Shown: piece after piece, positions 15,789-49,795 of the stretch | How positions within the stretch are numbered: the stretch's first letter is position 1 | Layout of the letters: every line of letters begins with the position of its first letter | From: Acinetobacter pittii | Lineage (GTDB): Bacteria; Pseudomonadota; Gammaproteobacteria; Pseudomonadales; Moraxellaceae | Reading direction: 5' to 3' | NCBI RefSeq assembly: GCF_034064985.1 | Contig: NZ_CP139249.1 | Span: 1,426,001 to 1,490,000 of the forward strand | Length of the DNA: 64,000 nucleotides | Made by a program: the position numbers and the translations under genes | The notes under the pieces: generated by a model | Database searches by the model: none | Told to the model about the DNA's origin: nothing | What the model saw: the letters and a program-made list of their open reading frames with translations, nothing else

Positions 15789-16319
15789 ATGAAAAAGACT
15801 TTTTATTATTTATCAGCAATTGCTGCAGGATTATTTTCTCTCAATACAGCAAATGCTGCTACAGCAACTGGAACATTAACTGTTAGAGCGACAGTGACAA
15901 ATAGCTGTGTTCTAAATACCTCAGCCACAGGCACCACTTCAAATGCGGTCTTAGACTTTGGAACATTAAGTTCAATTGCGAGCAATGTAGACGCAGATAC
16001 CACAACTACAGGTGGTACTCCAATCAGAGTACTTTGTAACAACACTGTGCCATGGACTTTATCATTTGATGGTGGTCAGAATGTTTTATCAACACAGCGC
16101 CGTATGATTGGTGGAGCAACCACTACAGAATACATTCCTTACAACCTTTTCTCTGACACAGGCCGGGCAACAGCAATCGGCATTGCAACAACTGCCTATA
16201 CTGGGACAGGGACTGGTAATGTTCAAACTGTAAATGTGTATGGTCGTATTCCTGCTGGGACGACTTTACCAAGTGCTGGCAGTTATTTAGATACTGTGAC
16301 AGTGACTGTAACTTATTAA
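15789..16319 (+). CDS. Fimbrial major subunit, spore coat U domain (CsuA/B-like)
   Basis: A 176-residue secreted pilin of the archaic chaperone-usher class. A Sec signal peptide ends at about NANA (residues 20-24). The mature part has the SCPU-type pattern: an early Cys in NSCVLN, LDFGTLSS, a second Cys in RVLCNN, RRMIGG...EYIPYNLF, VYGRIPAG, and a C-terminal beta strand ending VTVTY. It is the first gene of a four-gene operon, and the following stem-loop may favour its higher expression. Unlike the classical csu locus there is one such small subunit gene rather than three. Confidence 0.88.
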   Translation: MKKTFYYLSAIAAGLFSLNTANAATATGTLTVRATVTNSCVLNTSATGTTSNAVLDFGTLSSIASNVDADTTTTGGTPIRVLCNNTVPWTLSFDGGQNVLSTQRRMIGGATTTEYIPYNLFSDTGRATAIGIATTAYTGTGTGNVQTVNVYGRIPAGTTLPSAGSYLDTVTVTVTY

Positions 16320-16340
16320 TTTTAATAAATAAGAAATATT

Positions 16341-16363
16341 ATTAGCCCTTTAAAAGGGCTAAT
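16341..16363 (+). other. Intra-operon stem-loop after the pilin gene
   Basis: A perfect 10-bp stem, ATTAGCCCTT with AAGGGCTAAT, and a 3-nt loop. It is not followed by a T-run (next bases GCATTAAAAG), so it is better read as an mRNA 3'-end protector or partial attenuator than as a full terminator. It would give more pilin than chaperone or usher transcript. Confidence 0.6.
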
Positions 16364-16390
16364 GCATTAAAAGATTTATTTGGGCAAGTC

Positions 16391-17095
16391 ATGAAAAAAA
16401 ATATCTTTATTATTACGAGTTTATTCTTATCTTTATCTAGCGCTTTGAGTGCGGCTACAATCCGAATTTCACCTGTGAATGTTGAAATTTTGAGTAATCA
16501 AAATGCTTCTTCGATTAGTTTATTTAACCAGTCGAATGAAAGTACTGATTTACAGATTCGTGTGTTTGAATGGACTCAAAAGGATGGGCAAGATCAACTC
16601 ATCCCGACAGATGAGATCGCGATTAGCCCACCGTTTTTAAAATTAAAACCGAATGATTCTTATAATTTGCGTGTTGTCAGAATTAATCCGGCAGCGATTA
16701 CTGGTGAAAAAACCTATCGTATTATTATTGATGAGTTACCAAAACCCGCGGATAGCCGTAAAGCGGCTCAAGGAATAAATGTATTACTACGTTCGTCATT
16801 GCCTGTATTTGTAGTAGATAAAGACGCGATTACTAAACTGAATTGGAAAATTGATCTTAATCAGAAATCTCCTTCTTTAAATATTAGCAATATTGGAAAT
16901 CGACATGCGCTTTTAAATAATTTAACGCTTGTTGATACCACAGCAAATAAAAGTTATCCGATTCAAGTAAACACCGTGAATGGGTATATTCTTGGACAGC
17001 AGACACGAAATTATTCTATTCAGAATTTTACATATCAGCCAAATCATAAATACAGTGTATCTCTGACAGTTAATGGTAAGAAAACAACACTTTAA
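16391..17095 (+). CDS. Fimbrial periplasmic chaperone (CsuC-like)
   Basis: A 234-residue PapD-type chaperone. The signal peptide ends near SALSAA (residue about 22) and is followed by the first beta strand, TIRISPVNVEIL. Recognisable segments are SISLFNQSNESTDLQIRVFEW, the ISPPFLKLKPNDSYNLRVVR strand carrying subunit-binding residues, and TYRIIIDELP. It would hold pilin subunits in the periplasm and pass them to the usher, whose gene begins 10 nt downstream. Confidence 0.88.
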   Translation: MKKNIFIITSLFLSLSSALSAATIRISPVNVEILSNQNASSISLFNQSNESTDLQIRVFEWTQKDGQDQLIPTDEIAISPPFLKLKPNDSYNLRVVRINPAAITGEKTYRIIIDELPKPADSRKAAQGINVLLRSSLPVFVVDKDAITKLNWKIDLNQKSPSLNISNIGNRHALLNNLTLVDTTANKSYPIQVNTVNGYILGQQTRNYSIQNFTYQPNHKYSVSLTVNGKKTTL

Positions 17096-17104
17096 GAGGC
17101 TTAT

Positions 17105-19564
17105 ATGAAATACATTATAGGTGTCTTATGTGTTGCATATCTTCCTGCATATTCTTTTGCTGAGCAACTTCAAGATCATACGAACACAATAACTCCTCGT
17201 GTTCCAGATGCTATAAATAGCAATAATAAGTATGCGCAAGTGAAGGGTGATAGACAGGAACAAGATCTTAACTTTACTCAACTTTTTTTAAATATTTCTA
17301 TTAATACAAATGCTGCTGAAGACTTGGTAGCAGTAGGGCAGTCTAAGGATGGCAAATTGTATATCCGTGCCCGTGACTTAAAAGCTTTAAGACTAAAAAT
17401 GAATGAGCAGACTCCTGACAGTCAATGGGTGTGTATTAATGATCTAAAGGGAATTCAGTTTAAATATCTAGAGAATGAGCAGTCCCTAAATTTGCAAGTT
17501 CCGTCAAACATGTTGACGGGCTATGCAGTGGACTTAAATGGCCAGCAAATTACCAGCCCACATTTGCTTAAAATGAAACCCTTAAACGCGGCTATTCTCA
17601 ACTATAGCTTGTATAACAGCATAACCAATGACGAAAATACCTTTTCCGGTTCGGCTGAGGGGATTTTTAACAGTGCGATCGGTAACTTCTCTTCAGGCGT
17701 TTTATATAACGGCAGTAATGAAAATAGTTATAGCCATGAAAAATGGGTACGCCTAGAAAGTAAGTGGCAATATGTCGACCCTGAAAAGATCAGGATATAT
17801 ACCCTAGGGGATTTTATTTCTAACAGTCCGGATTGGGGGAGCAGTGTCCGTATGGCCGGTTTCCAGTGGTCGAGTGCCTACACACAGCGCGGTGATATTG
17901 TCACCTCTGCACTCCCACAATTCTCCGGTTCGGCTGCGCTTCCTTCAACTTTGGATTTATACGTCAACCAGCAAAAGATTTATTCAGGACTAGTGCCATC
18001 AGGCCCTTTTGATATTAAACAGCTTCCGTTTATTTCAGGAAATGAAGTCACCCTTGTGACCACCGATGCAACGGGTCAGCAGAGCATTACCAAAAAGCCT
18101 TACTATTTTTCATCCAAGATTCTGGCAAAAGGGATTAATGAGTTTTCTGTAGATGTCGGTGTTCCTCGTTATAACTATGGGCTTTATTCAAATGATTATG
18201 ATGATGCCACCTTTGCATCAGGTGCGATCCGATACGGTTATAGCAATTCACTGACTTTAAGCGGGGGCGTGGAAGCTTCAACAGATGGTCTGTCGAATCT
18301 CGGTACAGGATTTGCCAAGAATCTGTTTGGTTTTGGAGTGATTAATGCTGACATTGCAGCGAGCCAGTATAAAGATGAAAACGGCTATTCTGCCTTGTTG
18401 GGTTTAGAAGGGCGCATCAGTAAAAATATTTCATTTAACACCAGTTACCGCAAAGTATTTGATAACTATTTTGATCTTGCCCGTGTGTCTCAAGTCAGAT
18501 ATTTAAAAGATAACCAGATTAATGCCGAGTCACAAAACTATCTGAGCTACAGTGCACTGGCCGATGAGATTTTTAGGGCAGGGATTAACTACAACTTTTA
18601 CGCAGGCTATGGGGCTTATCTGGGATATAACCAGATCAAATATAGCGATAACTCTTATAAATTACTCTCTGCCAACTTAAGCGGAAGTCTTAATAAAAAC
18701 TGGGGTTTTTATACTTCTGCCTATAAAGATTATGAAAATAATAAAGACTATGGCGTTTACTTTGCGCTGCGGTATACACCGTCTAACAAACTCAATGCGA
18801 TCACAAGTGTATCTAATGAGAGTGGCAGACTGAGCTACCGTCAAGAAATATTTGGTTTATCGGAACCGAAAATCGGTTCATTTGGATGGGGTGGTTATGT
18901 TGAGCGAGATCAGGATGCACGTGAAAATAATGCCTCGATTTATACTTCTTACCGTGCCCGTGCTGCTTACCTGACAGGACGCTATAACCGATTTGGAGAT
19001 AACGATCAGGTTGCACTTTCAGCAACAGGTTCACTGGTTGCGGCAGCGGGACGTATATTTGCGGCCAATGAAATTGGAGAGGGTTATGCAGTTGTCACCA
19101 ATGCCGGACCGCAAAGCCAGATTTTAAATGGTGGGGTTAATTTAGGTTTTACCGATAAATCTGGAAGATTTCTAATTCCGAGCTTAATGCCGTATCAAGA
19201 GAACCATATTTATTTAGATCCGTCTTATCTTCCTTTAAATTGGAGCGTTAAAGCGACAGATCAAAAAACAGTGGTCGGCTATCGCCAAGGAACCCTAGTT
19301 GACTTTGGTGCTCATCAGGTTATTTCAGGATTAGTAAAACTTGTTGATCAAAACAATTCACCATTATTACCAGGTTATACGGTACGCATTAATGGGCAGC
19401 AGGATGGGGTTGTTGGCTATGACGGTGAAGTGTTTATTCAAAACTTATTAAAGCAAAACAAACTTGAAGTCGATCTTATGGATCATGGCACCTGCCAAGT
19501 TGACTTCACTTATAACAGTAATCAGTACTCAACTAAAAAATTGGGACCTTATATATGTCATTAA
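17105..19564 (+). CDS. Fimbrial outer-membrane usher (CsuD-like)
   Basis: An 819-residue usher that would form the outer-membrane pore for pilus assembly. After a signal peptide ending near SFA (residue about 19) come an N-terminal chaperone-binding domain, a long alternating-strand barrel region, a plug-like segment near residues 250-330 (PSTLDLYVNQQKIYSGLVPS), and C-terminal domains with SGLVKLVDQNNSPLLPGY. AAGAGG provides the ribosome site. Its last codons overlap the tip adhesin start by 10 nt, implying translational coupling. Confidence 0.9.
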   Translation: MKYIIGVLCVAYLPAYSFAEQLQDHTNTITPRVPDAINSNNKYAQVKGDRQEQDLNFTQLFLNISINTNAAEDLVAVGQSKDGKLYIRARDLKALRLKMNEQTPDSQWVCINDLKGIQFKYLENEQSLNLQVPSNMLTGYAVDLNGQQITSPHLLKMKPLNAAILNYSLYNSITNDENTFSGSAEGIFNSAIGNFSSGVLYNGSNENSYSHEKWVRLESKWQYVDPEKIRIYTLGDFISNSPDWGSSVRMAGFQWSSAYTQRGDIVTSALPQFSGSAALPSTLDLYVNQQKIYSGLVPSGPFDIKQLPFISGNEVTLVTTDATGQQSITKKPYYFSSKILAKGINEFSVDVGVPRYNYGLYSNDYDDATFASGAIRYGYSNSLTLSGGVEASTDGLSNLGTGFAKNLFGFGVINADIAASQYKDENGYSALLGLEGRISKNISFNTSYRKVFDNYFDLARVSQVRYLKDNQINAESQNYLSYSALADEIFRAGINYNFYAGYGAYLGYNQIKYSDNSYKLLSANLSGSLNKNWGFYTSAYKDYENNKDYGVYFALRYTPSNKLNAITSVSNESGRLSYRQEIFGLSEPKIGSFGWGGYVERDQDARENNASIYTSYRARAAYLTGRYNRFGDNDQVALSATGSLVAAAGRIFAANEIGEGYAVVTNAGPQSQILNGGVNLGFTDKSGRFLIPSLMPYQENHIYLDPSYLPLNWSVKATDQKTVVGYRQGTLVDFGAHQVISGLVKLVDQNNSPLLPGYTVRINGQQDGVVGYDGEVFIQNLLKQNKLEVDLMDHGTCQVDFTYNSNQYSTKKLGPYICH

Positions 19565-20574
19565 ATATTATGAATAAGGCTCAAATAGAGAGCTATAAAT
19601 TTTTCCCCTCATCTTTAAAATACTTTATAGGCATTTGCTTATTTTATCTCGTTTATGCATTTTTTAGTCCAGCTCAAGCTGCTTGCACGGTAAGTGGTAC
19701 CACAAATAGTACTTTTACCTATACAGCAGCAAATATTAATAATGATGCAACCGTAAACCTTTCAGGCACAATTACTTGCACAAATTTAGGACTTCCCCAG
19801 ATTTCTAATTTCATGTGTATGAAGACCGTATTTACAGGAGCAACCACTGCGAATAATAGTGTGACTTTACCATATACGGTAACTGCAACTGTAGGCGGGG
19901 CTGGCTCTTCCACTACCAACCAAACCTCCAATGTGTGGTATGGCCCAGTAGCAACAGTCGCATCAAATAATATTGTGAGCTACTCGGTAAATATAAAAGT
20001 TCCAGCCCGAACGGGGTCGCTTCTTGCTTATCCGAAAGGAACATATACGGCTTCGGTTCGGTTGTATTGGGATATGGATCTTTTGGGTTTATCTTGTGGT
20101 GATTTACTTGGTGGCTGGGATTCAGGCGATACATTGCTAACAGCAAACTTTGTGGTTCCAAGTCTGTGCCAATTAAACTCAACCTCAACTGTAGATTTCG
20201 GCAATATTAATGATATTGGCACGACTAAGCGTGATTACACAGCGCAAGGAGCCGTAAATTCGACCTGTAATTATGGAACGCCATATAGCATTTATTTAGG
20301 CGATGGCAATAACCGTATAGCTGGGAGCTTTAGGCGTATGACTAATAGTAATAATGAATTTATTCCCTATCAGCTATATAAAGATTCTAACTATAGTACG
20401 GTATGGGACGCTACAGGTGGTGTAATCAGTGTTGGGGGAGCAGGAGGAGTCTCGAAAACAGGAACAGGAAGCGCTCAAACGACTACAGTGTATGGAAAAA
20501 TTCCGCAAGGCACTGCCATCGCAAGTAGACCTGGCGTCTATTCTGATAGCGTTGTCGTTACGGTGACTTATTAA
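19555..20574 (+). CDS. Fimbrial tip adhesin (CsuE-like), two SCPU domains
   Basis: A 339-residue secreted protein. The hydrophobic signal (about residues 24-43) ends at SPAQA, unusually late, so an internal Met at residue 5 is also a possible start. An N-terminal domain from ACTVSGTTNSTF to about residue 200 is followed by a second SCPU domain (PSLCQLNSTSTVDFGNIND to VVVTVTY) resembling the major pilin. The length equals that of the known Csu tip subunit. It would cap the pilus and mediate adhesion or biofilm formation, by analogy with CsuE. Confidence 0.87.
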   Translation: MSLNIMNKAQIESYKFFPSSLKYFIGICLFYLVYAFFSPAQAACTVSGTTNSTFTYTAANINNDATVNLSGTITCTNLGLPQISNFMCMKTVFTGATTANNSVTLPYTVTATVGGAGSSTTNQTSNVWYGPVATVASNNIVSYSVNIKVPARTGSLLAYPKGTYTASVRLYWDMDLLGLSCGDLLGGWDSGDTLLTANFVVPSLCQLNSTSTVDFGNINDIGTTKRDYTAQGAVNSTCNYGTPYSIYLGDGNNRIAGSFRRMTNSNNEFIPYQLYKDSNYSTVWDATGGVISVGGAGGVSKTGTGSAQTTTVYGKIPQGTAIASRPGVYSDSVVVTVTY

Positions 20575-23026: not shown

Positions 23027-23584
23027 ATGGTGAATATAAAGAGTTTTCAACGAGCTGTTCAAGTAGCGTCGACCTTGGCAGCTTTTATGTGTTTTCCTCC
23101 ACTCGCTCAAGCTTCACAATACACTCAAACTGCTCGTTTAGTTAACGAATGCTTATCTTATATGAAGGATGTCGCAGGTTATAAAGCAGAGCAGCATTTA
23201 CCTATCGAAGATTTAACTCAAGAAAAGAAAGTTCTCGATCAATCGCTTTCTGAAGCTGAATCTTTTGGCTTAAATAGCGAAACGGTAAAGCCATTTATTA
23301 TGACGCAAATGAATGTTGCCAAGGCCATTCAATACCGTTATCGGGCTGATTGGTTGTCGAGTCCAGAAAGCAATTGGAAGCCACAAGATTTAGCAGAAGT
23401 ACGATTAAAAATTAGTTCTCTAAACACTGAACTTCTAAAAAATATTGCCGTTGAACTTAAGAGAAATAACAACAAAGCGCCTCATGGCTGTAGCTATATG
23501 TGGCCTGTTCAGCATCCTCAACTTAAAGAAGCCGACAAAAAAGCTTTATGTGAGACATTAAATAAAATCAAGTTAAGAGAATGA
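23027..23584 (+). CDS. Exported hypothetical protein
   Basis: A 185-residue protein with a Sec-type signal peptide (about residues 1-29, ending PLAQAS). The mature part is helical and charged and has two Cys residues near the C-terminus (HGCSYMW, KALCETL) plus one early (NECLSYM). I do not recognise the family. It lies 77 nt after the SDR-like gene on the same strand. Confidence 0.65.
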   Translation: MVNIKSFQRAVQVASTLAAFMCFPPLAQASQYTQTARLVNECLSYMKDVAGYKAEQHLPIEDLTQEKKVLDQSLSEAESFGLNSETVKPFIMTQMNVAKAIQYRYRADWLSSPESNWKPQDLAEVRLKISSLNTELLKNIAVELKRNNNKAPHGCSYMWPVQHPQLKEADKKALCETLNKIKLRE

Positions 23585-23624
23585 AAAACAATAATTATTT
23601 AACTGTTTTCTAGCCAATACCACA

Positions 23625-23653
23625 TTGACACCCAAAATCTCTCCGATTATCCT
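23625..23653 (+). promoter_or_regulatory. Promoter of the C4-like RNA unit
   Basis: A perfect -35 box TTGACA (23625-23630), a 17-bp spacer and a -10 box TATCCT (23648-23653). Transcription should begin near 23660, right at the first hairpin of the RNA. Confidence 0.55.
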
Positions 23654-23659
23654 TTGCCT

Positions 23660-23830
23660 GCTGGCCACATTGCCAGTCGGTTTTAGCAGACCGTTTTCAT
23701 CTAGATCATCAAAAGAGCAATTTTTTGGTGTCGAACTCGTTCGTCTCCCTTCGTAGCGGTAGGACGGAGGAGGGACGCCTTCGGGCGTGCCGGTTCCTAG
23801 ATGACTGGTCTGCTAACCCTTCTTCGTTCT
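23660..23830 (+). ncRNA. Structured RNA, C4 antisense RNA-like
   Basis: Much more GC-rich and folded than its surroundings. A 5' hairpin CTGGC/GCCAG (23661-23676) comes first. A long closing stem pairs TTAGCAGACC (23683-23692) with GGTCTGCTAA (23807-23816) and continues as TCATCTAG (23697-23704) with CTAGATGA (23797-23804). Inside is ACGCC-TTCG-GGCGT (23775-23788), a classic UUCG tetraloop. The 3' arm TCCTAGATGA (23795-23804) is exactly complementary to the ribosome site of the small ORF at 23890. The layout resembles phage P1/P7 C4 RNA; homology to that family is my inference and was not searched. Confidence 0.65.
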
Positions 23831-23872
23831 GCCACCATAATCATTTAGCAGTGATTTGGTAGAACTTCTATT

Positions 23873-23889
23873 TCATCTAGGAGTCCGCT
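23873..23889 (+). promoter_or_regulatory. Ribosome site complementary to the upstream RNA
   Basis: TCATCTAGGA (23873-23882) contains the AGGAG Shine-Dalgarno core for the ATG at 23890. It is the exact reverse complement of TCCTAGATGA at 23795-23804 in the structured RNA, so pairing would hide the ribosome site. Confidence 0.6.
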
Positions 23890-23979
23890 ATGCATACTAT
23901 TTTTTCTTTATTGGCCTCTGCCAAAATCTCTCTATTCATCCCATATAAACAGTCTTTAAAACGGTTTAATCGACTCTAG
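23890..23979 (+). CDS. 29-residue hydrophobic/basic peptide
   Basis: A short ORF with a strong AGGAG ribosome site 7 nt upstream. The peptide starts MHTIFSLLASAKISLFIPY and ends in a basic tail with three Lys/Arg residues in the last ten. That pattern recalls small membrane peptides and type I toxins. It lies between the C4-like RNA and a terminator, in the same transcript. By analogy with P1 c4-icd it could be the regulated product. Existence is inferred from context; the peptide family is not recognised. Confidence 0.45.
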   Translation: MHTIFSLLASAKISLFIPYKQSLKRFNRL

Positions 23980-24040
23980 GTTTTCTACATCTTAAGAATC
24001 GTTACGACTAAAAAATCATAGCAACAATAAACCTGAGATA

Positions 24041-24070
24041 GGCGAGCACACCATTATTTGTGCCGTTTTT
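24041..24070 (+). terminator. Terminator of the C4-like unit
   Basis: GCACA (24046-24050) pairs with TGTGC (24059-24063), with flanking GGC/GCC-like extension, followed by CGTTTTT. It closes a transcript of about 410 nt that starts near 23660. Confidence 0.5.
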
Positions 24071-24158
24071 GCATGCATGTTTTTAGCGCTCAATTTAAGA
24101 GTGACGGCATTTCTATCTCATTTACTTACAACAAAAAATTATTTTAAACGGTATAAAA

Positions 24159-24710
24159 ATGCCAAATTTAGAAGCATCATTTAGAGCACTTCGCGTGCTA
24201 CATGCGGCAAGAGATTTGTTTAATCAATATGGGTTTTACATCGGGATTGACCGAATTATTGAAGAAGCCAAAATTCCCAAAGCCACTTTTTATAACTATT
24301 TTCACTCCAAAGAAAGGCTTATTCAGATGAGCTTAACTTTTCAAACAGATGCATTAAAACATGAGGTGTTTTCAATTATTCATTCGTACCGTGAACTCAT
24401 GGCCTTCGATAAACTTAAGAAAATTTACTTTTTACATGCAAACTTAGAAGGCTTTTATCGGCTGCCATTTAAAGCCATTTTTGAAATTGAAAAGCTTTAT
24501 CCTGCGGCCTATAAAATCGTGATTGACTACCGGAACTGGTTTATTAAAGAAATTCATAAACTGCTTTTAACTATAAAAGTTAACGCTACAGTTGAAGATG
24601 CCTACATGTTTTTATTTGTGATTGATGGGGCAATGGTCCAGCTTTTAAGTGCGAATAGTACTGATGAAAGAGATAAATTATTAGAATATTTTATGTCGAC
24701 GCTCGCTTAA
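24159..24710 (+). CDS. TetR-family transcriptional regulator
   Basis: A 183-residue DNA-binding protein. The N-terminal helix-turn-helix spans about residues 12-55 (AARDLFNQYGFYIGIDRIIEEAKIPKATFYNYFHSKERLI), the standard TetR arrangement. The C-terminal ligand domain is helical and specific. No divergent target gene is evident; the preceding gap is the C4-like unit. The regulated gene and ligand are unknown. Confidence 0.82.
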   Translation: MPNLEASFRALRVLHAARDLFNQYGFYIGIDRIIEEAKIPKATFYNYFHSKERLIQMSLTFQTDALKHEVFSIIHSYRELMAFDKLKKIYFLHANLEGFYRLPFKAIFEIEKLYPAAYKIVIDYRNWFIKEIHKLLLTIKVNATVEDAYMFLFVIDGAMVQLLSANSTDERDKLLEYFMSTLA

Positions 24711-24742
24711 ATTGATCCATATTCTAGTGTTTAACTTATGAA

Positions 24743-24764
24743 AAAGCCCTCCAAAGAGGGCTTT
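24743..24764. terminator. Terminator between convergent genes
   Basis: A perfect 9-bp stem, AAAGCCCTC with GAGGGCTTT, and a 4-nt CAAA loop. It lies between the TetR gene and the convergent exported protein and is suited to both directions. Confidence 0.75.
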
Positions 24765-24768
24765 GAAT

Positions 24769-25209
24769 TTATCTAAAATTAGATTTATCTAAAATTTTAT
24801 AGACTTTTTCTCTATAGGCATCATTAGAAATTACCCCTTTATCTCGCTGTTGTTTGAGCGATCTAAATTGTTGGTCACGAATTTCTCTTTGAATACCTAC
24901 ATTATCATGATTTCTAAGGTAGTAAAGACTGCGTTCATGAGCACTCATATTCACTGTGTTATCAGTAAACGAAGTAGGCTCGGTTTCTTTTTCTTGATAT
25001 TGTTTTGCGATTTCAAAAAAATCTACATTTTGTTGTTCATTCAGCTTACTCTCTTGAGAGTTTGCGTTCACTTCAAGCATGCTTTTATGCTGATTAAATT
25101 TAGGGCGGTTATATTCTTGTTTCGTTTGAAAGGTGTTTGTTTCAGCAAATACGGAAGAAGGAAAAAGCCCAATATTTAAAAATAAAAAAGTTAATAAAAA
25201 TCTATTCAT
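24769..25209 (-). CDS. Exported hypothetical protein with SHOCT-like tail
   Basis: A 146-residue protein. It has an N-terminal signal peptide (MNRFLLTFLFLNIGLFPSSVFA), a Gln/Asn/Lys-rich linker, and a C-terminal helix pair (FRSLKQQRDKGVISNDAYR) with the L-x-D-K-G-x-I-x-x-x-x-Y/F pattern of SHOCT-like domains. The start at 25209 is chosen because it gives the signal peptide directly; the ribosome site is weak. No function can be assigned. Confidence 0.6.
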   Translation of the reverse strand: MNRFLLTFLFLNIGLFPSSVFAETNTFQTKQEYNRPKFNQHKSMLEVNANSQESKLNEQQNVDFFEIAKQYQEKETEPTSFTDNTVNMSAHERSLYYLRNHDNVGIQREIRDQQFRSLKQQRDKGVISNDAYREKVYKILDKSNFR

Positions 25210-26313: not shown

Positions 26314-26615
26314 ATGGGTTATGCTCAAACACTAAGAGCATATTATAATTTTTGAGAGAAATTATATCTGCTCTTGGGTTCTTTATAGTATTGATATATC
26401 AGGGTTTAGCTGTATTGAAGTGATCTTTAAGAGCTAAATTCAAAAGTAGAAAGCTAACATTTCAGTGTAGTTATAAAATAAGACATTTTATTTATAAATT
26501 AAAAAAATATAAAAATTAATTACATTACTATCAAAAGGTAACATAAACAAAACTTTAAAAGAGTAAAAAATCATTATAAAAAATAAGTAAATCCATAAAA
26601 GTATCTAGAAAAAAT
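26314..26615. other. AT-rich gap
   Basis: About 300 bp with no supported gene. Nothing stands out apart from AT-rich runs before the next ORF. Confidence 0.4.
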
Positions 26616-26885
26616 ATGAGTGAAGTAATGAAATCCTATAATGAGAGTAAAGCTACCAGAGTTGTAGCGTGGTGCATAATTTTATTTGGAATTGTTTTAG
26701 GAATAGCCTTTATTTTGTCATATGGGCAAGTAGAAACAAGAAATGATAATTTAGATATTATTCAAATATGGTCCACAGAAATGGTCACTATAGGTTTTTT
26801 TATTATATTTAATGGACTGTTGTTTGGTTATTTACTTCTAAAAATTAGTAGTATTTTAAATCATCTAGAAAATAATAAAAATTAA
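26616..26885 (+). CDS. Small membrane protein, 89 residues
   Basis: Two hydrophobic segments (about residues 16-38 and 52-76) flank a short polar loop, and the ends are charged. This is a probable inner-membrane protein. The family is not recognised. An alternative start is the Met four codons in. Base composition is as AT-rich as the surrounding accessory tract. Confidence 0.55.
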   Translation: MSEVMKSYNESKATRVVAWCIILFGIVLGIAFILSYGQVETRNDNLDIIQIWSTEMVTIGFFIIFNGLLFGYLLLKISSILNHLENNKN

Positions 26886-27191
26886 TAAATTTTATTGAAT
26901 ATAATTTATTATAAGATTTCTTTTATATTTTAAATAGGAAAGGTAAGCTTTAATTTAAATTATTAATAATTTATAGCAAATATTGAAAGAAAATTTTTCA
27001 AAAAAGACTTTTTATATAAGAATTAATGTGATTTATTTCGCATTTTATTGTTGATTGTGTGATTGATTTTAATGTTAACTTGCAAAGTACCTATACTTTT
27101 TACATTCGCTTTATGAGTTTTACCCTATATTACATAAAAAAATAATAGATTAAAAAAATATATGAATATATTCATAAGAAGATAGGAGGTT
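26886..27191. other. AT-rich gap before the 152-residue ORF
   Basis: About 300 bp with no ORF of note. It ends in an AGGAGG ribosome site for the next gene. Confidence 0.4.
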
Positions 27192-27194
27192 ATG

Positions 27195-27653
27195 ATGCCA
27201 AAATATCTAGCTATAGCGGATAAGGTTTATAAAAAAATTAAAAATGACAACTTGTTTTCTGATGACATGATAGAGAACTTAAATTGTTTAGTCGGTCTTA
27301 TTCGTAATACCATAAAAGGGACTGAATTTAAATTAAAGTATAACTTTATTAATTTTGAAGACTGTTTAACCAAGCCTACTGAGCAATGCTCAGTAAAAAT
27401 TGATTTTAGTATTATACCTAAATTTGAAAATGAAGGGGAATTTATTTTATGGTTAGCGGGATTTATTGAAAGGATTACTGAAGGTGGAAAACCTAAATTT
27501 CCGCCAATTTCACAGTTAGTGCCTCAAGGTTTTAGCCTAGGAAGTGAAAGTATTCCAGTAACTACTTTACCTGATAAAGAGGAAAATGCAGAAATGATTA
27601 TTAACTATTTTAAATCAGATGATTACCTTAAAAATAATAAATTACCCTCTTAA
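27195..27653 (+). CDS. Hypothetical protein, 152 residues
   Basis: A soluble acidic protein that I do not recognise. Two adjacent ATGs (27192 and 27195) follow a near-perfect AGGAGG; the second gives the better spacing. No signal peptide or membrane segment is present. A clear terminator follows 18 nt after the stop. It lies upstream of a short acidic ORF and a lysozyme gene, but a terminator separates them. Confidence 0.6.
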   Translation: MPKYLAIADKVYKKIKNDNLFSDDMIENLNCLVGLIRNTIKGTEFKLKYNFINFEDCLTKPTEQCSVKIDFSIIPKFENEGEFILWLAGFIERITEGGKPKFPPISQLVPQGFSLGSESIPVTTLPDKEENAEMIINYFKSDDYLKNNKLPS

Positions 27654-27670
27654 AAATATGTAAAATTTAT

Positions 27671-27692
27671 AAACCGCCTTTTATGGCGGTTT
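27671..27692 (+). terminator. Rho-independent terminator
   Basis: An 8-bp stem, AAACCGCC (27671-27678) with GGCGGTTT (27685-27692), runs straight into a further five T. Confidence 0.85.
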
Positions 27693-27808
27693 TTTTAAGC
27701 AAATGTATCTTAAAGTGTCTGTTACACAAATGGTGAATGTTTAGGGTTGAATGTATCTTTCAATTATTTAAGCATGGAATAACACAAGTTAAGTAAAGGA
27801 TAAATTTC

Positions 27809-28009
27809 ATGATTGATGAAGAAAAACCCTTAAATTTTGACGATGATGAAGAACCTCTTGATTTTGCAGATGAAGAATTTATCGATGATAAAAAAGAGGA
27901 TGAGTTATATAACAGCATTACTAAAGATGGCTCTAGTGTCGATCCAGCCGATGATGGTGAACGGCATATTCGACCTGAAGATGGTGATCCGATAGAAGTT
28001 GAAGAATAA
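27809..28009 (+). CDS. Small, highly acidic protein, 66 residues
   Basis: More than a third of the residues are Asp or Glu (for example FDDDEEPLDFADEEFIDDKKED). It is probably disordered. An AAGGA ribosome site and a terminator just after the stop support a real gene. A DNA-mimic or chaperone-like role is possible but speculative. Confidence 0.55.
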   Translation: MIDEEKPLNFDDDEEPLDFADEEFIDDKKEDELYNSITKDGSSVDPADDGERHIRPEDGDPIEVEE

Positions 28010-28015
28010 TCTATA

Positions 28016-28033
28016 GCCCAATTCATATTGGGC
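28016..28033 (+). terminator. Terminator after the acidic ORF
   Basis: A perfect 7-bp stem, GCCCAAT with ATTGGGC, and a TCAT loop, followed by ATTTTAATTTTT. Confidence 0.7.
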
Positions 28034-28176
28034 ATTTTAATTTTTAGAGTATTTTAAACAAATATTAATACTAGATATTGTTCTACCATTAATGACTTAA
28101 AAATTGAGAGTTAAGCATTGAGACTAGAGTTGTGCGGCTATATCTTTTTAGAAAACGTAAGATGATTGGGAATTAA

Positions 28177-28749
28177 ATGCAAAAAATATTGGATTATCTT
28201 CGCAAGTTTTTTACTGCCATGTCTCGGTCAAGTGATGCTAATAATAGTCTCATTGCTACAGCAACTGATAATGGCACTGAAGAAGTTGGTTTCGCCGTTG
28301 ATGAGATGTCTGTTAGTCAGGAAGGGGTAAACCATATTTGTAATTTTGAAGGATTAAGACTTAATGCTTATGATGATGGAGTAGGTGTGTGGAGTATCGG
28401 TTATGGCACAACCAAATACCCAAATGGTTCGAGCGTTCAAAAAGGTGACACATGTACTCTTGAGCAGGCCAAAGCATATATGCAGCATGATTTAAAAATT
28501 TTTGAACGTGCAGTCAATGGTGCTGTAAAAGTTCCTTTAAAGCAAAATCAATTCGATGCATTAGTCTCTCTAACATATAACATTGGGACGGGTGCTTTTA
28601 AAAACTCGACCTTACTAAAAAAATTAAATTCAGGTAATTACAAAGAGGCTGCAAATCAGTTTGATGTATGGGTAAATGCAGCAGGTAAGCGTTTACCGGG
28701 GTTGGTGAGACGGCGTGCCATGGAAAAGAAATTATTTCTAACTTCATAA
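28177..28749 (+). CDS. GH24 phage-type lysozyme (endolysin)
   Basis: A 190-residue muramidase. After a 50-residue low-complexity N-terminus, the catalytic domain begins SQEGVNHICNFEGLRLNAYDD. The Glu in NFEGL, Asp in YDDGVG and Thr in GYGTT give the T4-lysozyme E-D-T triad. The C-terminal ALVSLTYNIGTGAFKNSTLL and GLVRRRAMEKKLF segments are typical. No SAR or Sec signal is evident, so export would need a holin or another route. Holin and spanin genes are absent nearby, which suggests a prophage remnant or a domesticated lysozyme. Confidence 0.85.
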   Translation: MQKILDYLRKFFTAMSRSSDANNSLIATATDNGTEEVGFAVDEMSVSQEGVNHICNFEGLRLNAYDDGVGVWSIGYGTTKYPNGSSVQKGDTCTLEQAKAYMQHDLKIFERAVNGAVKVPLKQNQFDALVSLTYNIGTGAFKNSTLLKKLNSGNYKEAANQFDVWVNAAGKRLPGLVRRRAMEKKLFLTS

Positions 28750-28804
28750 ATTTTTTATAGGGTTTATATCAAAAAAGCTATTCCAGTCTTTATATAAAAT
28801 TAGG

Positions 28805-28930
28805 CATAAAAAAGCCTGATGCTACGAATCAGGCTTCAGTATTCATCGACAATAGGAGTTGATGAACAAGACCAATCTAACAGACCTGCTCAGTAAAGGC
28901 AAACCGAGGCTTGAATTGCTGAGTCAGATA
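28805..28930 (-). ncRNA. Candidate small RNA A (minus strand)
   Basis: Read on the minus strand, a GTTCATC...GATGAAT hairpin (plus strand 28842-28847 with 28861-28866) is followed by an AAGCCTGAT/ATCAGGCTT stem (28812-28820 with 28828-28836) and a T6 run. That is a compact hairpin-plus-terminator layout. The 5' end is uncertain. Candidate B just upstream has the same layout. A 32-codon ORF on the plus strand overlaps it and is the competing interpretation. Confidence 0.4.
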
Positions 28931-28956
28931 AAAGTAATTTTTCCAAATTATACGCA

Positions 28957-29037
28957 TTAAAAAAGCCCTTGCTCGAAAGCAAAGGGCTTAGTCATTCATT
29001 GATCTACCAATGAACTATATAAGGCTCATCTCATACT
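28957..29037 (-). ncRNA. Candidate small RNA B (minus strand)
   Basis: On the minus strand, a TATACT -10-like box (plus 29044-29049) would start an RNA of about 80 nt. It contains a TTCATTG/CAATGAA hairpin (plus 28995-29001 with 29008-29014) and then a terminator stem AAGCCCTT/AAGGGCTT (28963-28970 with 28982-28989) ending in T6. Sequence and order parallel candidate A. The -35 box is poor. Confidence 0.45.
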
Positions 29038-29315
29038 AAGGACAGTATAACTGAATTTAAGGAAGCAGAGAAGAAAACCTTTAAATGGTTTTCTTATTCT
29101 ATTTGTACTTAATTTATTGAGGCATATAGCAAGTTACATCAATAGTAAACCAAGACACAAAACTTGCACTTTGCATTTTTAAGGGTGTGGTATTTGTGTG
29201 TAGGCCCCGATTAGATTGGCTTTGAGAAGTAAAAATAGTGGTCTTTAAGTAATTCAAATAACGTTTGGAATGAACATTTTGAAGAATCAGGGCGGATGTA
29301 AGCAAGGAAGTAAAT

Positions 29316-29558
29316 ATGAATTTGATTAGATTAGAAGAACTCTCATTGATGAGTAATGCGGTTTTGACACCTCAATTAAACAAATGGCCATGCATACAAT
29401 CAACAAATTTAGAAGATACTGATTGTCAGAAGCATAGAGACAGTTTTTCCGAACAATCTGATAAAAAATTTCATAAAGAATGGCGAAAACAACAAAAGAA
29501 AATACTTAAAAATATTCCGAGTAATGCTGTATTACTCAGTATGAAAGACTCTATTTAG
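29316..29558 (+). CDS. Hypothetical protein, 80 residues
   Basis: A charged, Lys/Gln-rich small protein with an AAGGAAG ribosome site before the ATG. The C-terminal half looks like a basic helix (KKFHKEWRKQQKKILKNIP). No family is recognised. It lies upstream of a phage head-morphogenesis-like gene after a 184-bp gap. It could be a phage remnant or an orphan protein. Confidence 0.4.
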   Translation: MNLIRLEELSLMSNAVLTPQLNKWPCIQSTNLEDTDCQKHRDSFSEQSDKKFHKEWRKQQKKILKNIPSNAVLLSMKDSI

Positions 29559-29742
29559 TCTAGACATTAGATAATTTTATAAAGACATAAATTACAAGGA
29601 TAAGCTGTTAGCTAAATAACTTTACGTAGGTACACTTGTTAGTCATAACTTATTCTAGAGATATTAATAATAAGCAAATTACATAAGGTAAGACAAACAA
29701 ATAGAAAATAATAAAAAGGGCAATTCTGTAGAGGTAATTTTT

Positions 29743-30849
29743 ATGGTTAATCTTCACCAAAAATCACTTTTTGATGTTCTAACTCAACATCAGGCTTATC
29801 TATATCGAGCATCTTCAAGATCGGTCAATGAACTTCTTAATTTATTTAATTCCGAAACAGTTAACATGCTTACTAAACTAAGTAACCTGTTAGATGAGCT
29901 AAGTGAAAAGGAAAAAACCGCATTGGCGGGTGGGCTTTACTCAACAGCCACATTAAAAGAGATACGTGCACTGATTTCTCAGTGGTTTAATACCACTAAC
30001 GATGTTCTCATGGATACTTTTACCATCTCTGCTGTGGCATTGGCCGTCTATGAAGCCAGATATATGTCAAAAATTTTTGGTGGTAGACATAAAGAGTTAA
30101 AAGGCGAACAGCTGTATAAAGCTGCGAAACGTGTTCCTTTAGCAGGTGGAGCATTGGTAGATGAGTTGCTCTTGAAAATTGTTGAGGTGGCGCGTCAACG
30201 TGTCGAGTATGCAATTCGGGATAGCCTTAATACTGGAGCCACAAATCAACAAATTATTCAAAGGATTCACGGCACTAAACGCCTTAAATATGAAGATGGA
30301 CTATTAAATAGCACAAAGGCGGATATTGAACGAACTGTACGTACAATTCGAAGCCATATATCCAATCAGGCCTATTTAAATAGCTATAAACAGTTAAAGT
30401 TTGAATATGTCAGATTTGTAAGTGTCCTTGATGGAAGAACATCCAAAGTATGTGCTGCACTTGATAGCAGTGTCTGGACCATCAATGATCCTACAAAGAA
30501 AGTTCCCCCTCTACATCCTCATTGCCGTAGTATTTTAATTCCAACACATGAAGATGGTCAGCTCATTGGCAGCCGAGCTTTCATTATGGATGAAAGAAAA
30601 TTTAAGGATATTCCTAAGATTGAACGTGAACAATTAACTGGTCAATTAGATGCAAATACATCTTTTAAAGAATTTTTTAAACTAACAGACGATTTCTTTC
30701 AAAAAGAGTGGCTAGGACCTAAAAGGTATCAACTATATAAAGAAGGGGAATTCGACTTTGATAAGTTTTTTGATCCAGAAGGGCGGTTATATACACTTGA
30801 GGAACTTAAAGAACTGGATGAGCGGGCCTTTAAAATATTGGGATTGTGA
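29743..30849 (+). CDS. Phage head-morphogenesis (MuF/SPP1 gp7-like) protein
   Basis: A 368-residue protein with a helical N-terminal 200 residues and a MuF-type core near residues 220-265: FVRFVSVLDGRTSKVCAAL-like strands, then PPLHPHCRSILIP with the characteristic HPHC cluster. The tail RYQLYKEGEFDFDKFFDPEGR is common in phage minor head proteins. No portal, terminase or capsid gene is adjacent, so it looks like an isolated prophage fragment or a domesticated gene. A polymorphic-toxin role is possible but no toxin domain is visible. Confidence 0.75.
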   Translation: MVNLHQKSLFDVLTQHQAYLYRASSRSVNELLNLFNSETVNMLTKLSNLLDELSEKEKTALAGGLYSTATLKEIRALISQWFNTTNDVLMDTFTISAVALAVYEARYMSKIFGGRHKELKGEQLYKAAKRVPLAGGALVDELLLKIVEVARQRVEYAIRDSLNTGATNQQIIQRIHGTKRLKYEDGLLNSTKADIERTVRTIRSHISNQAYLNSYKQLKFEYVRFVSVLDGRTSKVCAALDSSVWTINDPTKKVPPLHPHCRSILIPTHEDGQLIGSRAFIMDERKFKDIPKIEREQLTGQLDANTSFKEFFKLTDDFFQKEWLGPKRYQLYKEGEFDFDKFFDPEGRLYTLEELKELDERAFKILGL

Positions 30850-31011
30850 GATAGAGCAGCAGTATTTGAAATCGGTTTTTTATCTTAAATAATTTTTTTG
30901 GTTTTAACTAAATATACACACTTAAACAATTAGTTGAAAAAAGTTTCCATAATCTTGTCAGATAGCATGTTAAGTTTTTCTCAATCATAAAAATTTAAAA
31001 AGGATGAGAAT

Positions 31012-48168: not shown

Positions 48169-48403
48169 AAGGCTTTTCCAAGCATATTAACGATATTCTT
48201 ATAAGCTACCTTAACACAATTCAAATAGACCTGTATTGACTAGAATGACATTGTAGATAGCATTCAGGTCAAGACATCCAAAGATGAAGTCAAGTATGAT
48301 TTGGAGTAACTCTAATGAACGACTGCTTTCATATTGTTTCTATCCATCTCATAACATAATGAAGCCTGTCGTAGAAAATTCATTTCTTTGAGAGATAATA
48401 ATC

Positions 48404-49795
48404 ATGACTGATCAATACCAAGCATTTACACAATCTCCTATTGGTAAATTCGTTGTTAAAAATCTGGGTTTACCATCGCCGGTTGTATTAGAGCGTTTTG
48501 AAAGTGCTCAGCCAGTAGTGAATGGTGCAGTATTGGTTGGTGCAGCGCCGTCAAGTGTATTGTCTGGTGCGATTGCACAAGTACTTAGCAATATTCATGC
48601 AGATAGCTATGTAGGCAATAATGTTGCTTTACAACAAGAAGCTGCAAAAGTTGGTTTAAATTTACGTCCATTCAATGCGGGCGATAAAGAATCAAAATTC
48701 AAAGCAGTTGTATTTGATGCCTCTGGTATTCAAAACTCAGAACAGTTAAACGAACTTTATAAATTCTTTAATCCGATTGCACGTCAAGTTGCGACTTCTG
48801 GTCGGGTGATTGTTATTGGTACAACACCTGAAACTGCAAAAACTGTAAAACAAGCGATTGCTCAGCGTGCACTTGAAGGCTTTATCAAATCTGTAGGTAA
48901 AGAATTTAAAAAGGGTATTACTGCTCAAGTTGTTTATGTTGATGAAGGTGCTGCTGCAAACCTTGAATCAACTTTACGTTTCTTGCTTTCTCCGCGTTCG
49001 GCTTATGTTTCTGGTCAAGTGATTCGTGTATCTAAAGCAGATGTAGTTGATGTTGATTGGGCAAAACCGCTTGCTGGCAAAACTGCGTTGGTAACAGGTG
49101 CGAGCCGTGGTATTGGTGAGGCAATTGCACATGTGTTGGCACGTGACGGCGCGCATGTTATTTGTTTAGATGTACCTCAACAACAAGCTGATCTTGACCG
49201 TGTAGCGGCTGATATTGGCGGTTCTACATTGGCAATTGACATTACTGCTGCTGATGCGGGGGAAAAAATTAAAGCTGCTGCGGCAAAACAAGGCGGTTTA
49301 GATATTATCGTTCATAACGCGGGTATTACACGTGACAAAACTTTGGCAAATATGAAGCCTGAGCTTTGGGACTTGGTAATTAACATTAACTTATCTGCTG
49401 CTGAACGCGTAAATGACTACTTGTTAGAAAATGATGGTCTAAATGCAAATGGCCGCATTGTTTGTGTATCATCAATTAGTGGTATTGCTGGTAACCTTGG
49501 TCAAACAAACTATGCTGCATCGAAAGCAGGTGTAATTGGCCTAGTGAAATTTACTGCGCCTATTCTAAAAAATGGTATTACCATCAACGCGGTAGCACCT
49601 GGTTTTATTGAAACTCAAATGACTGCGGCAATTCCATTTGCGATTCGTGAAGCTGGCCGCCGTATGAACTCAATGCAACAAGGTGGTTTACCTGTTGATG
49701 TAGCAGAAACAATTGCATGGTTTGCATCAACTGCTTCTACAGGCGTAAACGGCAACGTTGTACGAGTGTGTGGTCAAAGCTTGTTGGGCGCTTAA
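48404..49795 (+). CDS. High-molecular-weight 3-oxoacyl reductase (FabG4-like)
   Basis: A 463-residue protein of two Rossmann-type halves. The C-terminal half (from about residue 225) is a normal SDR: TGASRGIGE, HNAGITRDKTLANM, SSISGIAGNLGQTNYAASKAGV with the YxxxK pair, and the FIETQM segment. The N-terminal 210 residues resemble a degenerate SDR-like domain without a good Gly motif, as in FabG4. It probably reduces 3-oxoacyl-CoA or -ACP in a pathway with the neighbouring thiolase and MaoC protein. Confidence 0.87.
   Translation: MTDQYQAFTQSPIGKFVVKNLGLPSPVVLERFESAQPVVNGAVLVGAAPSSVLSGAIAQVLSNIHADSYVGNNVALQQEAAKVGLNLRPFNAGDKESKFKAVVFDASGIQNSEQLNELYKFFNPIARQVATSGRVIVIGTTPETAKTVKQAIAQRALEGFIKSVGKEFKKGITAQVVYVDEGAAANLESTLRFLLSPRSAYVSGQVIRVSKADVVDVDWAKPLAGKTALVTGASRGIGEAIAHVLARDGAHVICLDVPQQQADLDRVAADIGGSTLAIDITAADAGEKIKAAAAKQGGLDIIVHNAGITRDKTLANMKPELWDLVININLSAAERVNDYLLENDGLNANGRIVCVSSISGIAGNLGQTNYAASKAGVIGLVKFTAPILKNGITINAVAPGFIETQMTAAIPFAIREAGRRMNSMQQGGLPVDVAETIAWFASTASTGVNGNVVRVCGQSLLGA

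Follow-up and report, generated by a model that had tools for sequence, protein, structure and literature searches.

Here, we analyzed a stretch of 64,000 nucleotides (nt) of Acinetobacter pittii DNA (contig NZ_CP139249.1, positions 1,426,001 to 1,490,000; hereafter the window), in which a C4 antisense RNA stands in front of a gene for a TetR-family regulator. The RNA belongs to the C4 antisense RNA family, and its two loops are complementary to two sites further down its own locus, one of which overlaps the ribosome site of a short leader open reading frame (ORF). It is probable that promoter, C4 RNA, leader ORF, an attenuator-like hairpin and the TetR gene form one operon, in which C4 pairing in cis keeps the TetR gene off. 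At the level of sequence comparison, covariation at both pairing sites gives good support to a cis switch, whose output is likely the TetR gene. For A. pittii, it is from this arrangement that we infer the processing of the RNA, the repression, the early end of transcription and the direction of control.

The switch would work as follows. The C4 RNA would be cut from the transcript, and its two loops would pair with two downstream sites of the same locus; the first loop would cover the ribosome site in front of the leader, while the second would hold a site about 25 nt upstream. With the leader untranslated, transcription would stop before the TetR gene, which would stay off. When the C4 RNA is scarce, or captured by, for instance, the upstream sites of its own unit, the leader would be translated and the TetR gene read. 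The leader peptide itself would be of little importance, its translation being the signal.

The C4 RNA and its pairing with a leader ORF

The Rfam C4 model (RF01695; gathering score 45) scored 65.8 bits at 23752-23839 of the window (E 9.4e-12), which bears out an earlier note, made from the letters of this DNA, that had read the region as a C4-type RNA. The 79-nt core folds at -44 kcal/mol, compared with -27.6 +/- 3.2 in 200 shuffles. GGT, a triplet of the GGW processing site type, is found at 23758, and we estimate that the mature RNA extends from about 23758 to 23836. According to the main text of Weiss 2016 (PMC5320573), homologues in A. baumannii AB5075 have a GGW processing start and show RNase P-like processing to about 77 nt, as judged from read coverage. 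The c4-a1b1 model (RF03163) matched 23647-23697 with 32.5 bits (E 1.5e-5), which is under its cut-off of 46.7; at E up to 1 it gave 12 matches in the same genome, none over the cut-off, and 9 of 14 control genomes matched too.

The earlier note had also described an arm of the RNA that can pair with the ribosome site of an ORF further down, and this complementarity is perfect in the window, with 10 of 10 contiguous pairs between the first loop and the downstream site b2. A second pair of complementary arms, absent from that note, joins the second loop to the upstream site a1 and, by 7 contiguous pairs, to the downstream site a2 (Table 1). The resulting bipartite target (TTAGCAG, 10 to 40 nt of any sequence, then TCATCTAGGA) has a single occurrence in the whole genome, in cis at the window unit.

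To compare loci, we fetched 149 C4 loci (20 from the same genome, 29 from a search and 100 by region), which are the best of a longer list and in which weak C4s are under-sampled, as well as 19 loci from the A. baumannii record NZ_CP064203. Nine of them could not be parsed (L020, L056, L062, L092, L118, L127, L134, L149 and L163), one was a false parse (L060) and two had no ribosome site by the rule used (L095 and L165), leaving 137 loci and all 19 from NZ_CP064203. The comparison set thus contained 156 loci, 119 of them non-redundant. Pairing was scored over an unbroken run, counting 1 for a standard pair and 0.5 for a G-T pair, and a score of at least 7 was considered a match.

Among the 119 loci, the mean score of the first loop with its own ribosome site was 7.17, compared with 4.85 +/- 0.10 after permutation, and none of 5000 permutations reached it. 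When GGA was excluded, the values were 5.47 and 4.05, again with 0 of 5000 permutations. Own loop-site pairs matched in 69 of 119 cases, as against 970 of 13842 mismatched pairs; the loci are related, and the 69 matched loci do not represent 69 independent events. The matched loci use 36 first-loop strings (34 after trimming of stem letters) and 39 distinct paired target words. In 67 of these 69 loci, the 7-nt core of the second loop finds its exact reverse complement in the downstream region of the same locus, and the cores are of four kinds: CTGCTAA (29/31), CTGTCAA (29/29), CGACCAA (6/6) and CGGCCAA (3/3). There are units that have one loop largely in common and are distinguished by the other, such as L007 and L019 in the A. 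pittii genome or L175 and L179 in A. baumannii. Covariation, the lack of which the earlier note had named as a refutation of its reading, is therefore present.

A third pairing involves the closing stem of the C4 RNA (23758-23774 with 23817-23833). The 3' strand of this stem, GTTCTGCCA, may form an alternative helix with TGGTAGAAC, a segment just 5' of the ribosome site. Of 135 non-redundant loci, 124 reach a score of 7 or more for this helix; the mean of own pairs is 8.49, compared with 6.57 after permutation (0 of 2000 permutations reach it), and the helix changes on both sides across loci (TGGCAGAAC, TGGTGAAAC, TGGTAAGACT and others). Because one strand is common to both, the C4 stem and the alternative helix are mutually exclusive within one transcript. 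It is conceivable that the alternative helix ends the C4 RNA or shapes the target.

The promoter, the pairing arms and the 29-codon ORF all lie where the earlier note had placed them. Promoter-like sites in 23580-24800 are not above chance (5, compared with 3.6 +/- 2.0 in shuffles), and the support for this promoter comes from its hexamers, which align in most of the 20 C4 copies of the genome. Terminator-like sites in the same interval number 3, compared with 0.7 +/- 0.8 in shuffles. The hairpin that had been taken as the end of a self-contained unit is present, but the unit continues beyond it, since a TetR-family gene comes next, here and in 65 of 139 parsed loci overall. Terminator-like hairpins were found in 41 of these 65 gaps between leader and TetR gene, compared with about 3.5 in base-shuffled gaps, although their positions are not all the same.

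The leader ORF was readable in 137 loci, 124 of which are not of prophage type. Outside prophage-type loci it has 9-49 codons and varies with the downstream gene family: 27-31 codons in TetR units with a ribosome-site match (n=28, including one with 18), 18 codons in 33 of the 37 unmatched TetR units (19 in two and 9 in two), and 9-49 codons in units with a lipoprotein-like gene (n=33). In the 13 prophage-type loci the ORF has 38 or 96-185 codons. A coding signature was sought by codon position in TetR-unit leaders of the same length, and none was found: mean differences per codon position were 8.2, 7.6 and 9.7 for 17 distinct matched leaders of 30 codons, and 3.2, 2.5 and 2.4 for 32 distinct unmatched leaders of 18 codons. 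As substitutions are not concentrated at third positions, the peptide shows little sign of selection as a protein. The window ORF had no family in Pfam or PHROGs. Because its amino acids seem to matter little, we read it as a leader whose translation, and not whose product, is controlled.

Table 1. Parts of the C4-TetR unit in the window, in order of position
Feature	Position	Strand	Evidence
Sigma-70 type promoter, TTGACA (23625-23630), 17 nt, TATCCT (23648-23653)	23625..23653	+	sequence, 10/12 consensus positions
Leader hairpin CTGGC..GCCAG, loop CACATT ('Region 1' hairpin of Weiss 2016)	23661..23676	+	sequence; inside sub-threshold c4-a1b1 match
Upstream site a1 (P1 naming), TTAGCAGACC, complement of second C4 loop	23683..23692	+	sequence
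Upstream site b1 (P1 naming), TCATCTAG, complement of first C4 loop	23697..23704	+	8/8 pairs
C4 antisense RNA	23752..23839	+	Rfam RF01695, 65.8 bits; fold z -5.1
First C4 loop, ribosome-site-facing, TCCTAGATGA, partner of b1/b2	23795..23804	+	pairs with 23697-23704 and 23873-23882
Second C4 loop, GGTCTGCTAA, partner of a1/a2	23807..23816	+	complementary to 23683-23692 and 23845-23851
C4 closing stem, 3' strand, GTTCTGCCA, alternative partner of 23857-23865	23826..23834	+	alternative-helix comparison
Downstream site a2 (P1 naming), TTAGCAG	23845..23851	+	7 contiguous pairs with second loop
Alternative-helix partner of 23826-23834, TGGTAGAAC	23857..23865	+	pairing comparison across loci
Downstream site b2 (P1 naming), TCATCTAGGA, overlaps leader ORF ribosome site	23873..23882	+	10/10 pairs with 23795-23804
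Leader ORF, 29 codons and stop, MHTIFSLLASAKISLFIPYKQSLKRFNRL	23890..23979	+	sequence
Terminator-like hairpin GCACA..TGTGC (24046-24063) with T-rich tail, putative attenuator	24046..24071	+	terminator scan
TetR-family regulator, 183 aa, presumed switch output	24159..24710	+	Pfam PF00440, 40.8 bits (cut-off 24)

Several further features were observed around these parts. Site a1 is part of a hairpin, CGGTTTTAGCAGACCG, with TTTT after it (23678-23697), and this hairpin is itself terminator-like. The motif AATGAAAAACAATAA occurs at 23580-23594, 30 bp upstream of the -35 box, and is similarly placed in L001, L009, L012 and L016, and with one mismatch in L017; it may be the site of a regulator or mark a former border of the unit. 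On the far side of the TetR gene, 26600-30850 contains prophage-remnant-like genes (for example, lysozyme-like at 28177-28749 and head-morphogenesis-like at 29743-30849; labels by sequence reading).

C4 copies in Acinetobacter and a probable link to colony switching

The A. pittii genome (3.89 Mb) contains 20 C4 matches, all over the cut-off, and 14 close TetR paralogues that are 44-100 percent identical; 13 of these 14 are directly behind a C4 copy. The closest named relatives of the TetR protein are from A. pittii and A. lactucae. Five other copies (L003, L005, L008, L012 and L013) precede a small lipoprotein-like gene, and such genes (84-109 codons) follow the C4 RNA in 34 of 139 loci, i.e., these five and 29 from other genomes; one member searched against Pfam had no match. 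L001 and L020 are in tandem (C1 1291170-1291578), the weak L020 (49.6 bits) being first.

In a genus sample, C4 RNAs were found in 50 of 59 genomes including this one; six others had 20-24 copies and the rest 0-8. In an order sample, 11 of 76 genomes including this one had a C4 RNA, and, this genome aside, none had more than 6 copies. In the A. baumannii record NZ_CP064203, C4 matches number 19 and close TetR genes 15, and a C4 RNA stands before 14 of the latter. NZ_CP064203.1, NZ_CP104448.1 and NZ_CP077849.1 are chromosome-sized A. baumannii records classed as plasmids.

C4 RNAs also occur in satellite-like prophages. One of them, L002 in the A. pittii genome (C1 2918215-2921303), has both sites matched before a 38-codon ORF, together with a gene piece with a DUF927 match and, upstream, BRO-N-like and AlpA-like genes (labels by sequence reading). 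In L055, L057, L059, L066, L086 and L089, the C4-controlled ORF has 100-131 codons and shares 4 nt with a longer gene, which runs off the fetched stretch after 353-383 codons; the gene piece of L055 has a DUF3987 match. No antirepressor or TetR gene was seen in these prophage loci, and the C4 RNA of L002 had no match in the phage collection.

Relatives of the window unit were found in 26 records of that collection, all from Acinetobacter, with at least 20 'Acinetobacter phage MD-2021a' records among the matches listed. The MD-2021a contigs (CAKLQF02/CAKLQH02), up to 378 kb long, carry chromosome-like C4-TetR units and resemble mislabelled bacterial DNA, and the 30 records with the TetR protein likewise resemble bacterial contigs. 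We considered a 'stolen immunity', in which chromosomal C4 RNAs target phage messages, and set it aside: the phage-collection relatives look bacterial, and two pattern searches, one with an unmatched loop in four genomes and one with the window loops in this genome, gave no trans targets.

Two previous studies, cited here from their main texts, bear on these units. In A. baumannii AB5075, 21 'Group 1' C4-like RNAs are expressed and apparently cut at the GGW site (Weiss 2016, PMC5320573); they carry a 'Region 1' stem-loop of 6-7 nt with the loop CACAUU or CUACAUU, and their targets were left unidentified in that paper, incoming phages or host mRNAs being suggested. In the parts covered here, no cis target, leader ORF or TetR gene is brought up; neighbouring genes are listed in its supplementary Table S1. 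Independently, the TTTR family of AB5075 was described as 11 TetR-type regulators and one pseudogene (Perez-Varela 2022, PMC9802203). Opaque cells become translucent on expression of the 11 TTTRs, four of which (ABUW_1645, 1959, 2818 and 3353) are randomly activated. The activation mechanism is left open in the parts covered here, and neither 'antisense' nor 'C4 antisense' occurs in the main text. Among the papers listed in literature searches, which covered open-access main texts, we found none that joins C4 RNAs to TTTR regulators or names a cis target; likewise, the term 'C4 antisense' was not found in two papers on the A. baumannii RNA interactome.

Each of the 12 TTTR locus numbers can be placed, one-to-one and with the order kept, at the position of a Group 1 RNA (Table 1 of Weiss 2016), with 12 of 12 no more than 60 kb from where they would be expected and offsets from -49.5 to +18.4 kb. 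This ordered test, which used 18 positions (four neighbouring RNAs at 3.224 Mb were taken as one) and allowed offsets up to 60 kb, was passed by none of 100000 random placements and by 125 of 20000 circular shifts, which we take to be mainly small shifts that preserve the match. A simpler test, which assumed 1.017 kb per gene and the nearest locus, was discarded: in 200000 trials of each kind, random placements reached its result only 2 times but circular shifts 2633 times, and it put two TTTR pairs on one locus each.

The window site (GST, two SDR genes, chorismate mutase, C4 and TetR) is syntenic with NZ_CP064203 near 1.108 Mb, with 82 percent DNA identity over 2.6 kb and 77 percent identity between the TetR proteins, and about 1.9 kb of extra DNA lies between chorismate mutase and C4 in NZ_CP064203. 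By C4 order and strands, compared by eye, this would be the ABUWs029/ABUW_1645 site. Published positions and synteny thus point to the window TetR as the counterpart of ABUW_1645, a TTTR of the opaque/translucent switch. In the window, four genes at 15789-20574, ending 3.6 kb before the TetR gene, resemble a chaperone-usher fimbrial operon. No such operon was found in 16 kb at the matching NZ_CP064203 site, so it could not be used as a second proof of the ABUW_1645 identity.

As judged by position, the putative tie of C4 units to colony switching is strong, and the C4 switch probably helps to keep off the TetR regulators that drive opaque-to-translucent switching. A much more tentative proposal, which we regard as possible but doubtful, is that some Acinetobacter carry about 20 parallel C4 switches with two-part addresses (the ribosome-site loop and the second loop). 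Since C4 stem and alternative helix have a strand in common, each transcript would have to become either repressor RNA or readable TetR message, and this self-repressing choice, rather than a DNA change, would flip TTTRs at random. We also examined SrvS, a different small RNA that raises switching (Perez-Varela 2022, PMC9802203), as a decoy for C4 RNAs and rejected it, considering that the 300 nt before aadB on p1AB5075 pair with C4 leaders no better than shuffled sequences (z 0 to +2.2; 13 of 19 loci).

Unmatched units and rival explanations

A number of observations weigh against a cis switch as the common rule. Fifty of the 119 loci score below 7 at their own ribosome site, and in the A. 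pittii genome a match is found in only 5 of 13 C4-TetR units (L001, L006, L007, L010 and L019), one of which, L006, has an in-frame stop in its TetR gene. A trans target of an unmatched loop, GAGTTATTA, was sought in four genomes and gave only the units' own sequences. In the absence of a third-position excess, the case for leader translation comes down to a ribosome site and a start codon. Just 14 of 28 matched-class gaps carry a terminator-like hairpin (1.6 in base-composition shuffles), and that of the window has a short stem of 5 pairs and an interrupted T tract. The unmatched half is the main weakness of any single model. In nearly all of the eight unmatched TetR units and the five lipoprotein-type units of this genome, the upstream sites mirror the loops of their own C4 RNA. 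Among the five lipoprotein-type units of this genome, four score below 7, and L005 scores 8.0 with G-T pairs and without a matching second site.

The link to colony switching also meets difficulties. Plasmid copies of three TTTRs under native promoters raised switching 4- to 9-fold (Perez-Varela 2022, PMC9802203), which is not obviously predicted if the same clone supplies a repressor RNA in trans. A passage of a 2024 paper puts forward that switching is promoted by vesicle DNA and RecA, a route without C4. We had expected a ribosome-site match to mark out the four flipping TTTRs, which, by position, it does not: the NZ_CP064203 counterparts of ABUW_1959 and ABUW_3353 (L190 and L184, assigned by locus order) lack a two-site match, and that of ABUW_2818 is uncertain by locus order. 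In addition, the TTTR identity is an assignment by position and synteny rather than by AB5075 protein sequences.

One alternative is a conventional attenuator, in which leader ORF and hairpin sense translation or some other input and the C4 RNA only tunes the outcome, or has lost its role in the unmatched class. A local helix could close the ribosome site in both classes (ACTTC/GGAGT in the window and AACTCC/GGAGTT in the unmatched TetR class), and terminator-like hairpins are commoner in unmatched gaps (27 of 37, compared with 1.9 in shuffles) than in matched ones. However, the matched class covaries with the C4 RNA at two sites, which would be needless for an attenuator independent of C4, and we consider this explanation unlikely.

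Rather unlikely, too, is the proposal of Weiss 2016 that the chromosomal copies are independent small RNAs silencing phage or host mRNAs in trans. The high diversity of the loops would suit such a role, as would the many TetR units that keep upstream sites only, without a ribosome-site match, and the satellite-like prophage with its own C4 RNA in the same genome (L002). On the other hand, ribosome sites are matched in cis in more than half of the loci compared, the only place in the genome with both sites for the window loops is in cis, and the search of four genomes with one unmatched loop returned no sequences other than those of the units.

It is very unlikely that these loci are decayed phage immunity modules, that is, duplicated relics kept by recombination and without present function. 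Eight of the 13 TetR units of this genome do lack a ribosome-site match, the weak L020 beside L001 could not be parsed and the TetR gene of L006 is interrupted; but 34 inner loop sequences each match their own target, most of them at the second site as well (67 of 69 loci), AB5075 homologues are expressed and processed (Weiss 2016, PMC5320573), and the TTTR family is functional in AB5075 (Perez-Varela 2022, PMC9802203). Least credible of all is a type I toxin-antitoxin system with the 29-codon peptide as toxin and the C4 RNA as antitoxin, which the earlier note had raised as a possibility and which would suit the hydrophobic stretch and basic tail of the peptide: such a system would have a conserved small hydrophobic toxin under antisense control, and here the ORFs at the equivalent place vary in length and sequence from one homologous unit to another, their codon positions vary about equally with little selection on amino acids, and a regulator gene lies downstream.

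Comparison with known systems

The closest known arrangement is the C4-icd-ant system of phages P1 and P7 (RF01695 and RF03163), which shares with the window unit a promoter, sites a1/b1, C4, sites a2/b2, a first ORF and a downstream regulator gene. In P1, the block acts through Rho-dependent termination. The order in the P1 record is a1, b1, C4, a2, b2, icd, ant1, where a1 is TTGACAG at 48255-48261 and a2 is at 48423-48429, and the record describes icd as apparently needed for ant expression. The likeness to P1/P7 drawn by the earlier note therefore holds for the order of elements, and it had to be extended beyond the hairpin into a regulator gene. That no antirepressor gene follows was also correctly seen; the gene there is of the TetR_N family instead, so the unit is not an immunity operon of the P1 type. 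Further differences are that the 73-codon icd overlaps ant1 in P1, whereas the 29-codon leader is 179 nt away from the TetR gene, and that the window unit is chromosomal and one of 20 in its genome with different loops. The alternative helix, found in 124 of 135 Acinetobacter loci, is represented in P1 by only 5 contiguous pairs.

The satellite-like prophage C4 RNAs of Acinetobacter (L002, L055, L057, L059, L066, L086 and L089) resemble the window unit in that both downstream sites are matched at the ribosome site of the first ORF. They differ in this ORF, which has 100-131 codons and overlaps a longer gene, or comes first with 38 codons in L002.

With the Group 1 RNAs of A. baumannii, as described in the main text of Weiss 2016 (PMC5320573), the window unit shares the RNA family, the Region 1 hairpin, the GGW site and a similar copy number (21 in AB5075 and 20 here). 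Those RNAs were treated there as free small RNAs, whereas we read the window C4 as a cis switch. Similarly, the TTTR family, according to the main text of Perez-Varela 2022 (PMC9802203), consists of TetR paralogues (12 in AB5075, including one pseudogene) with a region between transcription start and coding sequence long enough for quantitative reverse-transcription PCR and with on/off behavior in transcriptional fusions; unlike here, no C4 or antisense RNA is named in that text, which describes SrvS instead.

As far as these texts go, C4-like RNAs of A. baumannii date back in the literature to 2016, and the randomly activated TTTRs followed in 2022 with the mechanism of their activation unsettled. 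Joining both would provide a mechanism at the level of base pairs, in which each regulator stands behind an antisense RNA switch. If this is true, a phage immunity device has been adopted and multiplied into a bank of switches for host genes, addressed by a pairing code in two parts.

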